DNA of 64,000 bases from Candidatus Limihabitans stercoravium (GTDB lineage: Bacteria; Bacillota; Clostridia; Christensenellales; CAG-314), in the NCBI GenBank assembly GCA_018715495.1, contig DVLO01000044.1:1-64000 (forward strand), read 5' to 3'. The notes beneath the pieces are model-generated. The model searched no databases and was not told where the DNA came from. It saw only the letters and a program-made list of their open reading frames with translations. Made by a program: the position numbers and the translations under genes. This document shows, piece after piece, positions 45,697-54,528 of this stretch; the first letter of the stretch is position 1, and every line of letters begins with the position of its first letter.

Positions 45697-47427
45697 TTAT
45701 GCAGCCGTAATAGTAAGCACGGGTGTCTCGCCGCTCATGTCAAGCACAAGAGTATATGTACCCGTTACTGTGCAGGCAATGTTGCTCTGAGAAAGGTCAA
45801 ATCCCTCGGGCGTTCCCGAAACATTGGACGAGCCTACCCAACCGCGTTGGTTGCCGGAATCGTTGCCCATGCAGATTCTGAGACCGAACTGATCGCCTTC
45901 GGTAAATTCCTTGGTGATGGTATAAGTCAGCGCGTCGGCGTCGTAAGTCATCTTCCATTCGGCGTCGACTGCCCAACCCGCGCCGGTCATTGTGCCGTAA
46001 ACATACACGTCGTCCGGAATGTTGAGGTCTTCAACCGAAATCATCTTGGAAAGACTGTTGAAAGTTATCTTGTAATCGCTTGTCTTTAAAATCTTGATGT
46101 TGTTGTTGGATGCGCTTACCGCACTGAAATTGTCACCGCCGTTCAACAGATTAAAGTAATTGTAACTACCCAGACCATTGTACGTATCCGTTCCCCATTC
46201 GCCTCTTTCCGTAGAGCCTTCCTTGAACGCCTGAATTACAAATTCTTTGTCTGCCGTCAGGTGGATACTGTCAATTGTGTAGATGTGCGGATTGGTTTCG
46301 TCCTGAACGAATTTGTACTGTTCATTGAAACAGTAGCCTTCCCAGTCCTTTACTCCGTCGGCAAATGTACCGTCGATATAGTAATCGGTGGGTTCGGGTA
46401 CATATTCGGTATCTACAGTTACGTTAAGTTTCGCCGTTTCTTCGGTGTAAGTGAATGTGTACATTCCCGCTTGCTTCGTGATCATGTTGCCACCGCTGTC
46501 TTCAAGCAGTTCCTTTGACGCGTCGTCAAGGTTTACGTACTTGATGTACGTCTTGCCCGCTGTCGTAACGCCATCTTCGGTAACTACCGTCGCAAACATA
46601 AAGGAATCTCCTTCCAACATGTACATCGACAGTGTGTAAATACCTTCTTCACCCTCTTTGAGAGTTGTTCCCGAGTATATAAAGTCTTTCCAGTCGGTGA
46701 CTTTTTCGCCCTTTATATAAAAGGTGGTAACCGCTCCTTGCGGTTCTTCCTCGCCGCCGCCCACTACATCGCCGTTGCGCACAACGGTTACAGAGTTATT
46801 GGCGTTGACGGGATCGGTAGTAACGGTAAACGTATAATTGCCCGCCATTGAACAAATTGCATTCTTGGGAGCATCGCCGAGACCGCTTCCTGCCTCTATA
46901 TACTCACCGGGATTTGCAATCGCGTCAAATCCGACGTTTACACCGTCGGCATTGTTGTAATCGAGCACTCCGTCGGAATTCAGAACGGTAAACTTGAATT
47001 CGTCCCCCAGATTGACGTCGATGGTAACTTCAAATACGTTGCCTTCGCCGCTTTTCTTGGTAAGTCTCACTGCGTCTTCAGGCGTCCAGCCTATTCCCGA
47101 ACCGACCATTACCCAGTTGCGCTCATCGTTGTAACCCTCCAGCTTCCAACGTGCGTAGGCAGACGCATCTTCCGTCATTACTGCTGTAAAATCGAATTCC
47201 TTGGCATTAGTAGGTGTTACAAACCAACCCACAAATTCGTAACCCGGCTTATCGGGATTGGAAGGTTTTGTAGGAGCCTTTCCTTCCTCTACTGTGATGG
47301 TATCCAATACGGTTGTACCGTCATCGTCGTACAATGTCAATGTGTAAGTAGCAGGATTACATGCCACCAATGTCAACGACAAAGCAATACACATCACAAG
47401 CACTACCGCCAAAAATATACGCTTCAT
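45697..47427 (-). CDS. Surface lipoprotein with InlB-type repeat and starch-binding-like modules
   Basis: The 576-residue product has a lipoprotein signal ending L-V-A-C with Cys23. Residues about 30-95 form an InlB/Listeria-Bacteroides repeat (G-Y-E-F-V-G-W-F, then Y-A-R-W-K). Three or four modules of about 110 residues follow, with repeated T-Y-T-I/L, N-Y-T-F-T and G-x-Y-T-F-T-Y patterns like SusE/SusF-type or CBM carbohydrate-binding domains. It likely holds starch at the cell surface for the adjacent maltodextrin transporter. No catalytic motif was seen. The gene has its own promoter and a 19-bp palindrome in its leader. Confidence 0.78.
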   Translation of the reverse strand: MKRIFLAVVLVMCIALSLTLVACNPATYTLTLYDDDGTTVLDTITVEEGKAPTKPSNPDKPGYEFVGWFVTPTNAKEFDFTAVMTEDASAYARWKLEGYNDERNWVMVGSGIGWTPEDAVRLTKKSGEGNVFEVTIDVNLGDEFKFTVLNSDGVLDYNNADGVNVGFDAIANPGEYIEAGSGLGDAPKNAICSMAGNYTFTVTTDPVNANNSVTVVRNGDVVGGGEEEPQGAVTTFYIKGEKVTDWKDFIYSGTTLKEGEEGIYTLSMYMLEGDSFMFATVVTEDGVTTAGKTYIKYVNLDDASKELLEDSGGNMITKQAGMYTFTYTEETAKLNVTVDTEYVPEPTDYYIDGTFADGVKDWEGYCFNEQYKFVQDETNPHIYTIDSIHLTADKEFVIQAFKEGSTERGEWGTDTYNGLGSYNYFNLLNGGDNFSAVSASNNNIKILKTSDYKITFNSLSKMISVEDLNIPDDVYVYGTMTGAGWAVDAEWKMTYDADALTYTITKEFTEGDQFGLRICMGNDSGNQRGWVGSSNVSGTPEGFDLSQSNIACTVTGTYTLVLDMSGETPVLTITAA

Positions 47428-48708: not shown

Positions 48709-48767
48709 GAAACGAATTTCCCGATTGCCTTTTGTTGTGTAAAGATTTTAGAAATACATTACCAAAT

Positions 48768-48796
48768 GCACCGAGAACTTCGTCGGTGCTTTTTTA
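48768..48796 (+). terminator. First leader terminator of the amino-acid transporter
   Basis: GCACCGA at 48768-48774 pairs with TCGGTGC at 48783-48789, followed by TTTTTT. The 3' arm could instead pair with the loop of the second hairpin. Confidence 0.85.
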
Positions 48797-48823
48797 TTGT
48801 TATAGGCGTAACCCGCATTACGA

Positions 48824-48857
48824 GGCAATATCCGCACCGACGGATGTTGCCTTTTTT
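48824..48857 (+). terminator. Second leader terminator of the amino-acid transporter
   Basis: GGCAATATCCG at 48824-48834 pairs with CGGATGTTGCC at 48841-48851 with one mismatch, followed by TTTTTT. The loop is CACCGA, the same six bases as the first hairpin's 5' arm. Confidence 0.85.
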
Positions 48858-48921
48858 GTGGGCAAAAACATCGCAAGATGACAAGATATACAAACCATCG
48901 AAATATAAAAGGAGATTTACC

Positions 48922-49710
48922 ATGAAAAAAATTGTAATGCTTACCATTGTAGCTATACTGTGTCTCACAAGCGTATTTGCTTTTACAGCTTGCGCACCCA
49001 AGGGAAACGTTTTGTACGTTGCAACCAATGCGGAATTCGCACCATTCGAATACGTTGACAAAGACGGAGAACTCATCGGCATTGACATTGAACTTGCCTA
49101 CTCAATCGGTGAAATCATGGGTTACGAAGTAGTAGTAAGCGACATGCCCTTCACGTCGGTACTTACCGCACTTGAAACAGGGGCTGCCAACATTGCAATG
49201 GCAGGACTTACAATCAGCGAAGAACGTCTTGAAAAGGTAGACTTCTGCACCCCCTACTTCACTGCAAACCAAGTTGTAATTGCTAAAAACGGTTCGGAAA
49301 TCGCCAACGCTACCACCACCGAAGAACTGTTGACGTTGCTTGAAAACAAGAAGATCGGTTTCCAATCAGGCACTGTTGCGGAATACTTCGTAGAAGGTGA
49401 CGAAGGCTGGGGATTTGAAGGAATTGCAGGAGCGGAAGCATTGGGATACAACAGCGGATCTCTTGCAGTACAAGCATTGTTGTCAGGTGGACTTGATTGC
49501 GTCATCATCGACTTGATTCCTGCACAAAGATTGGTAGAAGGTCACACCGAACTGACAGTATTGAGCGAAATGCCCTTGACTCAAGAAGAATACGCATTCG
49601 CAATTCAAAAGGGTGACACAGCATTGCAGACTGCCGTAAACAACGCTTTGCAACAACTGATGGACGACGGCACATTCGACGAAATTGTAGACAAGTACTA
49701 CGGTGAATAA
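48922..49710 (+). CDS. Polar amino-acid ABC transporter binding lipoprotein
   Basis: ATG 48922 behind AAAGGAG gives 263 residues. An earlier in-frame start lies in the terminators and is rejected. The signal ends F-T-A-C with Cys24, so it is lipid-anchored. The type-3 solute-binding fold is clear: A-T-N-A-E-F-A-P-F-E, G-I-D-I-E-L, A-G-L-T-I-S-E-E-R and a final D-G-T-F-D-E-I-V-D-K-Y. It delivers a polar amino acid to the permease encoded next. The arginine-rich leader points to arginine or a related basic amino acid. Confidence 0.92.
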   Translation: MKKIVMLTIVAILCLTSVFAFTACAPKGNVLYVATNAEFAPFEYVDKDGELIGIDIELAYSIGEIMGYEVVVSDMPFTSVLTALETGAANIAMAGLTISEERLEKVDFCTPYFTANQVVIAKNGSEIANATTTEELLTLLENKKIGFQSGTVAEYFVEGDEGWGFEGIAGAEALGYNSGSLAVQALLSGGLDCVIIDLIPAQRLVEGHTELTVLSEMPLTQEEYAFAIQKGDTALQTAVNNALQQLMDDGTFDEIVDKYYGE

Positions 49711-49740
49711 TAAAGATAACTGGTTTTAAAGGGTGAAGAA

Positions 49741-50413
49741 ATGAATTTTTGGCAAGAAATTTCCGCAGTGTTAGAATACCACACCTTGATTTTCAAGGGA
49801 TTGGGTGCTACACTGCTCATTACGGTGGGAGCGTTTCTCATCGGTCAGGTACTTGGTGTGGTTACTGCCACAATCAAGGTTGCACGCAACAACAACAGAA
49901 ATGTGTTCCTAAAGATACTCAACGCATTGGCGTCCGCTTACGTTACGGTAATACGTGGCACTCCCGTAGTAGTACAGTTGTTGTTGATGTACTTTGTAAT
50001 ACTGGGCGCAAGTCCGTTCCTCAATCCGCTCATTGTGGCAATCGCCGTATTTGGTATCAACAGCGGAGCGTATGTAGCGGAAACAATGAGAGGCGGTATT
50101 CTTTCGGTAGACAAGGGACAAATGGAAGCGGGCAGATCGCTGGGACTCAGTTTTCCCAAGACAATGGTAAAGGTTGTTGTTCCGCAAGCGACCAAGAACT
50201 CACTGCCTGCACTGTTCAACGAATTGATTGCACTGTTGAAAGAAACTTCCGTTGCAGGATACATCACGGTAGTTGACCTGACACGTGCATTCGAAAAAAT
50301 CAGCAACAACGAAACAAGCGCAATTGTACCCTACATCATGCTTGCGGTAATCTACCTTGTAATTGTAGGAATACTGACGCTCATCATACGTCAGATAGAA
50401 AAGAGGTTACAAA

Positions 50414-50427
<14 letters not shown>
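49741..50427 (+). CDS. Polar amino-acid ABC transporter permease
   Basis: The 228-residue product belongs to the HisM/GlnP permease type: helices, R-G-T-P-V-V-V-Q-L, and the loop E-A-G-R-S-L-G-L-S that contacts the ATPase. A single permease gene implies a homodimer channel. It lies 30 bases after the binding-protein gene and overlaps the ATPase start by 14 bases. Confidence 0.93.
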
Positions 50428-51232
<805 letters not shown>

Positions 51233-51249
51233 AACAATCTGATCATACC

Positions 51250-51281
51250 AACGGTGACGTTACAATGTCACCGTTTTTTTT
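51250..51281 (+). terminator. Terminator of the amino-acid transporter operon
   Basis: AACGGTGAC and GTCACCGTT form a 9-bp stem with an 8-base loop followed by a T-tract. Confidence 0.92.
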
Positions 51282-51427
51282 ATTAAAAACATCTTTAAAA
51301 ACTAAAACCAGAAAATGAACTGCGTTCCAATACAAAATTTCGTATAAGCAAAATTTAAATAGGTGGTGAGAACTGGATACATATTGTTCAGTATGGTAAA
51401 GAGTAGGTAAAATTTATGTAAAGTTTA

Positions 51428-51456
51428 TTGCTTTTACAAGATATATATGCTATGGT
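51428..51456 (+). promoter_or_regulatory. Promoter of the permuted carboxypeptidase lipoprotein gene
   Basis: TTGCTT at 51428-51433 and TATGGT at 51451-51456 with 17 bases between. Confidence 0.5.
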
Positions 51457-51487
51457 CCAATTAAACAATATGTAGGAGGTTCCTGAC

Positions 51488-53650
51488 ATGAAAAAAAACA
51501 AATTATGGCAAGTGGCAATATGTTTTGTACTAATATTGTCAATGTGCTTTCCGTTGCTTGCGGGATGCACCCCTGCACAATCTTCAAGTTTCCATGTAGG
51601 CACTACTGCTCCTGCTGACGACTTGGGTCAAAAGGGGGATTTCTACTTCAACAAAACAACAAGTGAGTTGTTCTACAAGACTGATGCCTGGGAGAAGGTA
51701 GCTGACCTCAAGGGGCAGCAAGGACAACCCGGACAAACCGGTGAACAAGGAGTAGGCGTTACCGACGTTGCACTGGTTGACGGTGAAATCATTGTAACAC
51801 TCAGCAACGGTGAAAAAATCAATGTAGGTCCTTTGCCGACTGACGAATCGCAACAACCCGAATTCAGCGAAACGGATGCAAAAAATGCTTTCTACGCTAA
51901 AATGAAGGAAAAGGCAGCCAGCTTCGGAATCGACACCGACAGACTGACATTCAACAGTGCAATCAGCGAAAGTTCCGGCTCTATAACTTCTCGTGACATG
52001 GCGAAAATGGGTGTTATGGCAATGGGCTACGACGAGCTTGTAAAAATTTGGAACCAACACAAATACACCTTCACTACTTCCGAAGTGGTCAAGACAATTA
52101 CGGTAGAATCCACATTCATGGAAGGTGACTACGGACACTATCTTTCCGATCACTATTACGTACTGGGAGGAAAAACAGGTAGTCTTGCCAAAACCAGCGC
52201 AGGCACTCCTGTTACTTGCATTGTAGTGGCGGTCAAGGGACCGAACGACGCTACGTTTGTGGGATTTATTTCAGGCAAGTTCCGTGATACGGACAGCCAG
52301 AACAGATTCCGCCTTGCAAAAACAGCTTTTGACATAGCCAGTCAAAAATATCTTGACAAAAATGCCGACACTTCGGCATTGGAAGAAACATTGCCCAGTG
52401 ACTGCATGATAACAATACTGTCTCTGCCCCAAACAGGAAATCTGCTTTCGTATAACTACTACGACTGGTATGCAGAGGACAGTCCGTATCTGGTATACGA
52501 TAAAAACGGAACAATGCCCTACTACACGGCAAGTTCGTGGAAAATACTCACTTGCATGACTGCCCTTGATTACATTGCCGATCTGGACGAAACATTGACC
52601 ATTACCGAAAGCTGTATAAAATCCGGATCCGGTCCGGTGTTTGACGGAGGAGAAGTTATTACCTACCGTGACGCATTGCATCTTATATTGCTTCCCTCTT
52701 CCAATACCACCTGCGTTGCAATAGCTGCGGCTGTCGGTCAAAAAATATTGCAACACGAATCTTCCGTCAGCGGAGGTCCTGTATACAGCCCTGTAGGAGA
52801 AGGGGACTTCGGTTTTGACACAGCACCCGTAGTATCAGTTTCCGAGGCAAAATCCAATCCCGATACAGGAATGCCGGTCAAAGTACGTGGCGTCGTGATC
52901 GGTGCTACCAACACTTACGACAACAGCACCAGCACGGTAATGCTCATAAAGGACGAGCAGTCCAACGAAATCTGCGGCGTGGCGAAAGCATTGACTACCA
53001 AAAGTGCTTTTGAAACCAATCTTCCCTTCGAGATAGGCGATATAGTAGAAATACCTGTCATCTGCGAAGTGGTTCCTGGAAATTTCAGCTACGGCGGCGA
53101 ACACAACAAACTGACATTCACATGGTTCGGTGATCGTTTCGACTCGACAGACCCCACACCGTTTGTAACCAAGTACAGGGTCGGCCACACCGACAACTTC
53201 GCAATTGACAAAGAACAGGTAACAACCGTCATCGACTCACAGGAAGACCTTGAAGCATTCTGCAACAGAGAATCAGGTCTGCACTGGGAAATCGTAATTC
53301 TCAGAGGTACAACAGAACAACCGCTCAAAGCCGTTACAGGCGCAGCTACTGCCAGCGGTAAAGAAGACAAGGACATGAAGCGTGAATACATCAGAATCTT
53401 CTTCGACAATCCGACAAGTATTGACGAGCAAAAAGTAGGAAAAACGTCTCCAAGTCTCAGTAACTTCGGAAACCTTCACAATCTGCCTGACCTACTGAGC
53501 ACAATGATGTTCAATCAGACGGAATACGCACAGGAAGATTTTACACAACCTTACACATTTGTAGGCGATGTGTACTGTCTGGTGATAGGCGGTTCTACTG
53601 CATATTACCACTTTATCGTACCCGATGCTTCCTGCATTGTTCCGGCTTGA
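51488..53650 (+). CDS. Lipoprotein with a circularly permuted D-Ala-D-Ala carboxypeptidase (S11-like) domain and a C-terminal OB-fold-like domain
   Basis: The 720-residue product has a lipoprotein signal (L-L-A-G-C, Cys27), a G-D-F-Y-F-N-K-T-T-S segment and a short collagen-like stretch of five G-x-x triplets (about 76-90). In S11 enzymes the order is SxxK, SxN, then KTG. Here the half with S-R-D-M-A-K-M (168-174) and G-G-K-T-G (227-231) comes first. The half with A-S-S-W-K (SxxK, Ser349/Lys352), L-D-E-T-L and L-L-P-S-S-N (SxN, 404-406) comes second. All three catalytic motifs are kept, so activity on peptidoglycan stem peptides is plausible. Residues about 445-550 resemble an OB-fold (V-R-G-V-V-I, then E-I-G-D-I-V-E-I-P). 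Confidence 0.82.
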   Translation: MKKNKLWQVAICFVLILSMCFPLLAGCTPAQSSSFHVGTTAPADDLGQKGDFYFNKTTSELFYKTDAWEKVADLKGQQGQPGQTGEQGVGVTDVALVDGEIIVTLSNGEKINVGPLPTDESQQPEFSETDAKNAFYAKMKEKAASFGIDTDRLTFNSAISESSGSITSRDMAKMGVMAMGYDELVKIWNQHKYTFTTSEVVKTITVESTFMEGDYGHYLSDHYYVLGGKTGSLAKTSAGTPVTCIVVAVKGPNDATFVGFISGKFRDTDSQNRFRLAKTAFDIASQKYLDKNADTSALEETLPSDCMITILSLPQTGNLLSYNYYDWYAEDSPYLVYDKNGTMPYYTASSWKILTCMTALDYIADLDETLTITESCIKSGSGPVFDGGEVITYRDALHLILLPSSNTTCVAIAAAVGQKILQHESSVSGGPVYSPVGEGDFGFDTAPVVSVSEAKSNPDTGMPVKVRGVVIGATNTYDNSTSTVMLIKDEQSNEICGVAKALTTKSAFETNLPFEIGDIVEIPVICEVVPGNFSYGGEHNKLTFTWFGDRFDSTDPTPFVTKYRVGHTDNFAIDKEQVTTVIDSQEDLEAFCNRESGLHWEIVILRGTTEQPLKAVTGAATASGKEDKDMKREYIRIFFDNPTSIDEQKVGKTSPSLSNFGNLHNLPDLLSTMMFNQTEYAQEDFTQPYTFVGDVYCLVIGGSTAYYHFIVPDASCIVPA

Positions 53651-53667
53651 TAAGTTTTCTCCATAAA

Positions 53668-53704
53668 AACACAGGGGACGCAATCTGCGTCCCCTGTGTT
53701 TTTT
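53668..53704. terminator. Bidirectional terminator between convergent genes
   Basis: AACACAGGGGACGCA pairs with TGCGTCCCCTGTGTT, a perfect 15-bp stem with a 3-base loop and T-tracts on both strands. Confidence 0.95.
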
Positions 53705-53724
53705 ATACACTTTTAAAATTTAAT

Positions 53725-54528
53725 TTACTTTACCGCAACAATGTTGCTGTCAGGCATTCTGACTTCATCTTCGCTCATTTCAAGATACTGCACAATATCA
53801 CGGATGAGTCTCGGACTGTTGTTTGTAAGAAACAGAGCATGACCTACGTCGTCATATAATTTCAATTTGTGGTAGGTAAAGAAATCGCACACGAAGTCTG
53901 CCGATGATCTTGGGACAAGTTCATCAAGCTTACCCCACACCACCATTGCAGGAACATCAATACTTTGCCTTTCCTTCAATGCGTCGTTACACAACTTCAT
54001 TAGATCTCTGAACACACTGTACGTGTGACTGTTTATATTTGGTAAAATTCGTCTTATTCCTATACGAATAGACAACAAGCTGTTGTTGCGGTAAGGTTTC
54101 AAGTAGTCGTTTGCCTCTCTCATACGTGCGGCGACAGCCCCGTTTGAATTCTGGTACTTCTCGTTGTAGGTCTTGAAGTAAAAGGACAGCATGGCAAACA
54201 ACGAACGGAAATTGAGATATTTGTTGGAAGGTGCGCACAATACTGCACGGTGCACATCCCTTACCGAACAAAGATAGGAAGTCAATGCTCCGCCCATAGA
54301 AAAGCCGATGACATCTACCTGGTCGTACTTTTCACGCAACATGTCGTAATCGGAACGGACTGTCGCAAGCGTATCCGCAACGTTAAATTCGTTGAAGTTG
54401 ACCTTACCGTTGTGTCCGGGAATCTTACACTTGTAAACGCAATCGTAGTCGCCCAAGCTGTCGTAGAGATCACCGAAATCCGCCACGTCTGTCAGAAAAC
54501 CGTGTATTGTCATCACTGCCTTGCTCAT
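53725..54528 (-). CDS. Alpha/beta-hydrolase (esterase/lipase-like)
   Basis: ATG 54528 behind AGGAGG gives 267 residues. The fold is shown by H-G-F near residue 9 (oxyanion hole), the nucleophile elbow G-F-S-M-G-G, the V-W-G-K-L-D-E-L-V segment with the acid, and the final D-V-G-H-A-L with the catalytic His. It resembles monoacylglycerol lipases or carboxylesterases, and the substrate is unknown. There is no signal peptide. It follows ung by 11 bases and is likely in the same operon. Confidence 0.85.
   Translation of the reverse strand: MSKAVMTIHGFLTDVADFGDLYDSLGDYDCVYKCKIPGHNGKVNFNEFNVADTLATVRSDYDMLREKYDQVDVIGFSMGGALTSYLCSVRDVHRAVLCAPSNKYLNFRSLFAMLSFYFKTYNEKYQNSNGAVAARMREANDYLKPYRNNSLLSIRIGIRRILPNINSHTYSVFRDLMKLCNDALKERQSIDVPAMVVWGKLDELVPRSSADFVCDFFTYHKLKLYDDVGHALFLTNNSPRLIRDIVQYLEMSEDEVRMPDSNIVAVK

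Follow-up and report, generated by a model that had tools for sequence, protein, structure and literature searches.

A gene of Candidatus Limihabitans stercoravium probably encodes a lipid-anchored surface protein that carries a naturally permuted S11 (DacA/PBP5-type) D,D-carboxypeptidase domain, for which a fold is predicted and a catalytic activity, a substrate and an origin by duplication are proposed. With somewhat less confidence, but still leaning towards it, we regard the protein as the first circular permutant to be found in nature of the serine D,D-peptidase fold that recognises penicillin; it would be a working, lipid-anchored cell-wall peptidase whose permuted termini allow a surface module to be attached on either side of one catalytic domain. 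The window, i.e. the whole stretch of DNA that was analysed, comprises 64,000 nucleotides (contig DVLO01000044.1, positions 1 to 64,000), and coordinates refer to the window unless a locus of another genome is named. The chain order KTG - SxxK - SxN was found in four proteins: the one from the window, its counterpart in a genome of the same genus (G001) and two paralogs (L036, L037) in a genome of another genus of the same family (G011). Sequence comparison establishes that the domain is permuted, that its four carriers belong to one clade and that the motifs are conserved. Because of this order, the domain is classed as a circularly permuted variant and not as an ordinary member of S11.

Layout of the lipoprotein

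The gene and its surroundings have the following features.

51250..51275, plus strand: hairpin resembling an intrinsic terminator, an 11-pair stem and then a T run (scan; consensus match only)
51474..51479, plus strand: Shine-Dalgarno sequence AGGAGG, eight bases ahead of the ATG (sequence reading)
51488..53650, plus strand: gene of the permuted-S11 lipoprotein, ORF of 720 amino acids (ORF read; homologs)
51488..51568, plus strand: lipoprotein signal peptide with lipobox L-A-G-C27, residues 24-27 (sequence)
51569..51844, plus strand: leader/stalk module with a short collagen-like GXY run at 51713-51751; matches no Pfam family
51845..52390, plus strand: C-terminal half of S11, first in the chain, residues 120-301, canonical columns 126-281 (profiles, secondary structure)
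52172..52180, plus strand: KTG motif, residues 229-231 (alignment, sequence)
52391..52405, plus strand: short linker between the former C and N termini, ahead of strand beta-1, at about residues 302-306 (boundary approximate)
52406..52777, plus strand: N-terminal half of S11, second in the chain, residues 307-430, canonical columns 27-125 at about 321-420 (profiles, secondary structure)
52454..52468, plus strand: N-x-Y-D-W, family-specific motif in the beta-1/beta-2 insertion, invariant in the permuted family
52532..52543, plus strand: SxxK motif, S349-S-W-K352, with predicted nucleophile Ser349 and base Lys352 (alignment, sequence)
52697..52705, plus strand: SxN motif, S404-S-N406 (alignment, sequence)
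52778..53647, plus strand: C-terminal module, residues 431-720 (homology to other lipoproteins)

The reading frame is as originally described and has AGGAGG upstream and the lipobox LAGC, and when the sequence was re-read, the motifs KTG (229-231), SSWK (349-352) and SSN (404-406) as well as the flanking SRDMAKM (168-174) and DLDET (365-369) were all found where they had been placed. The protein consists of a lipid-anchor signal, a stalk, a domain of about 300 residues and then a further module. The collagen-like stretch that had been described does exist (GQQGQPGQTGEQG, residues 76-88), but it is short. Leaders resembling that of the window protein are present in other proteins of the family, for example in one of 1093 amino acids (G018:C19).

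The C-terminal module had been likened to an OB fold. It is a genuine recurring module, but the OB fold is unconfirmed, as no Pfam family scored above threshold. The module is 36-46% identical to one that is located N-terminal of the permuted S11 domain in G011, and it is also present in other lipoproteins without S11. In the two genera, this module is attached to the one catalytic domain from opposite sides; new termini exposed at the surface would permit this. It recurs, moreover, in large lipoproteins (L038 1896-5570; L039 2013-7524), one of them with Big_3 domains, and these are encoded beside double C39-like peptidase lipoproteins.

Permuted order and predicted fold of the S11 domain

The S11 enzymes (PF00768; PBP5/DacA of E. 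coli, DacA/DacB/DacF of Bacillus) and the window domain have the three catalytic motifs in common, and the Pfam score is above the cut-off: PF00768 matches the window protein with 40.5 bits (cut-off 27.6), in two stretches in reversed order, with profile positions 119-212 earlier in the chain and profile positions 25-115 at residues 335-416. An alignment of the four permuted domains (A1) was compared by hhalign with a profile of 19 canonical S11 domains from relatives. The single canonical profile gave two swapped matches (A1 202-301 to columns 27-125 and A1 15-182 to columns 126-281). The doubled profile gave one unbroken alignment of 271 columns (E 5e-25, 24% identity) that runs through columns 126-281 and then 27-125 and never returns to a canonical column already used. 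The permutation cut is between columns 125 and 126, in the segment that leads from the SxN helix to the helix after it.

A second canonical S11 HMM, built from 53 sequences, matched each of the four permuted proteins twice and in reversed order. In the window protein, HMM positions 107-224 are found at residues 132-261 (i-E 1.7e-7) and positions 16-107 at residues 330-420 (i-E 1e-19), with a sequence E of 9.7e-28; the best i-E among 100 shuffled copies was only 0.24. Half-profiles revealed the canonical order in 20/20 other distinct S11 ORFs that had both halves recognised. Put back into canonical order in silico, the permuted domain has its motifs in register with the canonical ones and is about 26% identical to the best canonical domain. 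Judged from these profile comparisons, the S11 domain of the window protein is naturally circularly permuted, with a clean cut. The permutation that had been proposed from the motif order is borne out: the two halves are complementary parts of one S11 domain whose order is swapped in four proteins from two genera, and the halves are each independently S11-like; neither turned out to be unrelated to S11, the outcome that had been named as a refutation.

An ordinary S11 domain with misread motifs is out, since the profiles show both halves to be S11, and decayed tandem S11 domains are disfavoured by the clean complementarity of the halves in the doubled-profile alignment. A class A beta-lactamase was rejected as well: PF13354 matches the N-half of the window protein weakly (15.8 bits, cut-off 22), whereas the C-half matches S11 and not class A. 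On the L037 paralog, the NCBIfam model NF033103 (bla_class_A) stays below its cut-off (14.2 vs 200).

The likeness to S11 extends to the helix following SxN, the RDMAK helix, the KTG strand and the C-terminal helix, and in the predicted model the secondary-structure elements are at the expected places inside each half. The window protein differs in having the C-half before the N-half, an N-terminal lipid anchor, the NxYDW insertion between beta-1 and beta-2, and S-x-W-K where S11 has S-T-T-K. Many S11 enzymes have a C-terminal membrane-anchoring helix as an accessory feature; from sequence reading, the window protein lacks this helix and has the N-terminal lipobox LAGC and the C-terminal module instead.

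Every genome considered here is a draft assembly in many contigs, and one could imagine a chimera made in assembly or binning, or else a pseudogene, in which pieces of different S11 genes were united. We consider the chance of this negligible, since two independent assemblies with syntenic flanks have the same order, two diverged paralogs in a third genome share it, and the frames are open and equipped with a Shine-Dalgarno sequence and a lipobox. A mere assembly artefact is out on the same grounds, i.e. the second assembly and the diverged G011 paralogs.

From the four permuted sequences alone, AlphaFold gave a weak model (pLDDT 67, pTM 0.74; the other four models 39-50). With an alignment to which canonical half-fragments had been added (A4), AF2 predicted one compact domain with a pLDDT of 84.8 and a pTM of 0.86, and the five models were close to each other. 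The canonical fragments, misaligned in the first attempts, were cut back and subsampled to bring the motifs into line, so the A4-based model presupposes the homology it illustrates. Its elements are a helix, a helix pair, beta-3/4/5, a long helix, beta-1, beta-2 and the SxxK helix, followed by short strands, a helix and the SxN helix; we take this to be the S11 order, rotated. Foldseek tracks chain order, its structural alphabet using signed sequence separation, and matches of half-domains to S11 were nonetheless expected from this order-dependent search. With both models, the 50 PDB matches listed included neither S11 nor PBP nor beta-lactamase structures, and no match reached E <= 0.001; in BFVD nothing was significant, one match being the unnamed entry A0A7G9V0F9 (E 0.07, 115 columns, 3.4 A). 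The nearest solved structures by sequence are 1es4 (DD-transpeptidase), 6muq (murein DD-endopeptidase) and 3mfd, and in 1es4 and 6muq both halves were matched, in swapped order. The serine-transpeptidase (beta-lactamase-like) fold of the permuted domain is predicted, not confirmed.

Relatives, probable recent exchange and proposed origin

In G001, the permuted gene is located on a separate 158-kb contig and its product is 98% identical to the window protein. Identity between the window and this locus (L040) is mostly 92-99.6% over about 48750-53740, falling to 89% in a single 250-base bin, as compared to mostly 55-85% in the flanks. Synonymous divergence is 0.03 for the permuted gene and 0.05-0.17 for the transporter genes, as opposed to 1.8 or more for the flanking genes. 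The two species probably exchanged this tract, with its polar amino-acid ABC transporter and the permuted gene, not long ago, by recombination or transfer. Owing to this probable exchange, the copy in G001 shows that the gene is real, yet it is no independent sign of long selection; the G011 paralogs are. At the edge of the compared region (46650-47000), identity to L040 is about 98% again and then about 80%, which suggests a second exchanged tract. A functional tie to the upstream amino-acid transporter is unsupported: the terminator-like hairpin at 51250-51275 follows the gene of the ABC-transporter ATPase and parts it from the permuted-S11 gene, and there is no such neighbour on the short G011 contigs.

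The S11 domains of the two G011 paralogs are about 32% identical to that of the window protein. Both proteins have an extra module N-terminal of S11, and their chains end just past the SxN helix, i.e. at the new C-terminus. PF00768 gives L036 14.4 bits, which is under the cut-off, and L037 is matched by PRK11669 at 482-561 and by Beta-lactamase2 (PF13354) at 684-778, both weakly and in permuted order; the 53-sequence canonical HMM matches both paralogs with an E of 1e-17 or better. In L037, Cys-rich zinc-ribbon-like repeats (1437-2000) replace the collagen-like stalk, which is odd in a secreted lipoprotein.

Searches of about 1200 genomes with the A1 profile, in overlapping samples (396 genomes of the order, 41 of the family, 391 of the class and 398 of the phylum), gave no further permuted members, and among the genomes searched permuted S11 was seen in three only. 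Viral relatives were looked for and none was found. When the reordered domains are placed in a tree, the four permuted proteins fall into one clade (100/99), whose long stem measures 3.74 changes per column and which lies among long S11 proteins from other families of the order. Descent from the canonical S11 genes of the same genome (L001, L002) is unsupported; the permuted clade is elsewhere in the tree and its neighbours are weakly resolved.

The permutation would most likely have a single origin, in which tandem S11 copies fused and their outer halves were lost; the permuted domain would later have been joined to surface modules in differing orders. Permutation by duplication, which begins with tandem copies whose outer halves are then lost, is a known route (PMC3320104). 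In one relative from the order, three S11 genes follow each other head to tail (L077 456-4915; G060:C34), with 2 bases separating two of them, so raw material fit for fusion is present in the group; a fusion intermediate was not seen. The same route and the same tandem genes also speak for remnants of two S11 domains, each of which lost one half, that do not pack together within the chain and may assemble between chains. This is most improbable given that the matched halves do not overlap and use each canonical column at most once, that a single compact domain is predicted, and that domains about 32% identical, set in two module arrangements, share the order; swapping of halves between chains may nevertheless occur.

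Catalytic motifs, proposed function and significance

In the proposed permutant, the old N and C termini would be united via the short linker, and the new termini would be located in the loop that leads from the SxN helix to the helix after it, away from the motif residues in sequence. The chain would fold as the usual serine-transpeptidase fold, in which Ser349/Lys352, Ser404/Asn406 and Lys229/Thr230 would come together. The enzyme would act on the D-Ala-D-Ala end of the stem peptides of peptidoglycan, as a carboxy- or endopeptidase and via an acyl-enzyme, and the stalk and the C-terminal module probably place it at the wall. Our best inference places such an acyl-enzyme D,D-carboxy- or endopeptidase on the outer side of the membrane.

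All four permuted proteins keep the Ser and Lys of SxxK and the Ser and Asn of SxN without exception, despite a domain identity of only about 32%, which argues for a working enzyme. The third motif is KTG in the window protein, and KSG and KGG in the two G011 paralogs; together with the Trp at the third position of SxxK (S-x-W-K), this drift means that the activity may be altered. The main rival to an acyl-enzyme peptidase is a binding-only domain, that is, a genuine, folding permutant that is a peptidoglycan- or beta-lactam-binding pseudo-enzyme, or else one with another acyl-transfer or esterase activity. In addition to the two motif changes, the stretch with SA in place of the canonical NPHGL region and the long stem branch point in this direction, and the selection test has little power, the two closest copies having barely diverged. 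KSG, however, also occurs in class D beta-lactamases (PMC12073871), and with the four invariant residues we consider the loss of peptidase activity unlikely, at roughly one chance in a handful.

As had been suspected, no natural permuted S11 enzyme, PBP or serine beta-lactamase was found in the literature searched (full text, open-access only, where absence is no proof); the permuted S11/beta-lactamase folds in it are laboratory constructs only. Functional permuted class A beta-lactamases were engineered in a TEM-1 library (PMC3334891), and the engineered permuted beta-lactamase CP254, listed as 1ALQ in PMC2395249, was crystallised. They share the superfamily fold and remain functional or crystallisable in permuted form, but they are laboratory-made, are cut elsewhere and belong to class A instead of S11. 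Natural permuted enzymes exist in NlpC/P60 (PMC3142127), a superfamily that includes cell-wall peptidases; there, too, the permutation reorders catalytic residues, but the fold is that of an unrelated cysteine peptidase.

The few carrier lineages limit the physiological reach of the finding. The S11/beta-lactamase fold is, on the other hand, among the most studied in microbiology, and a permuted member is easily overlooked by annotation that expects the motifs in order. A natural permutant would reveal where this fold tolerates new termini and would be a natural scaffold for the design of sensors and split enzymes. It also opens a clear test of the role of chain order in the folding and catalysis of a penicillin target.
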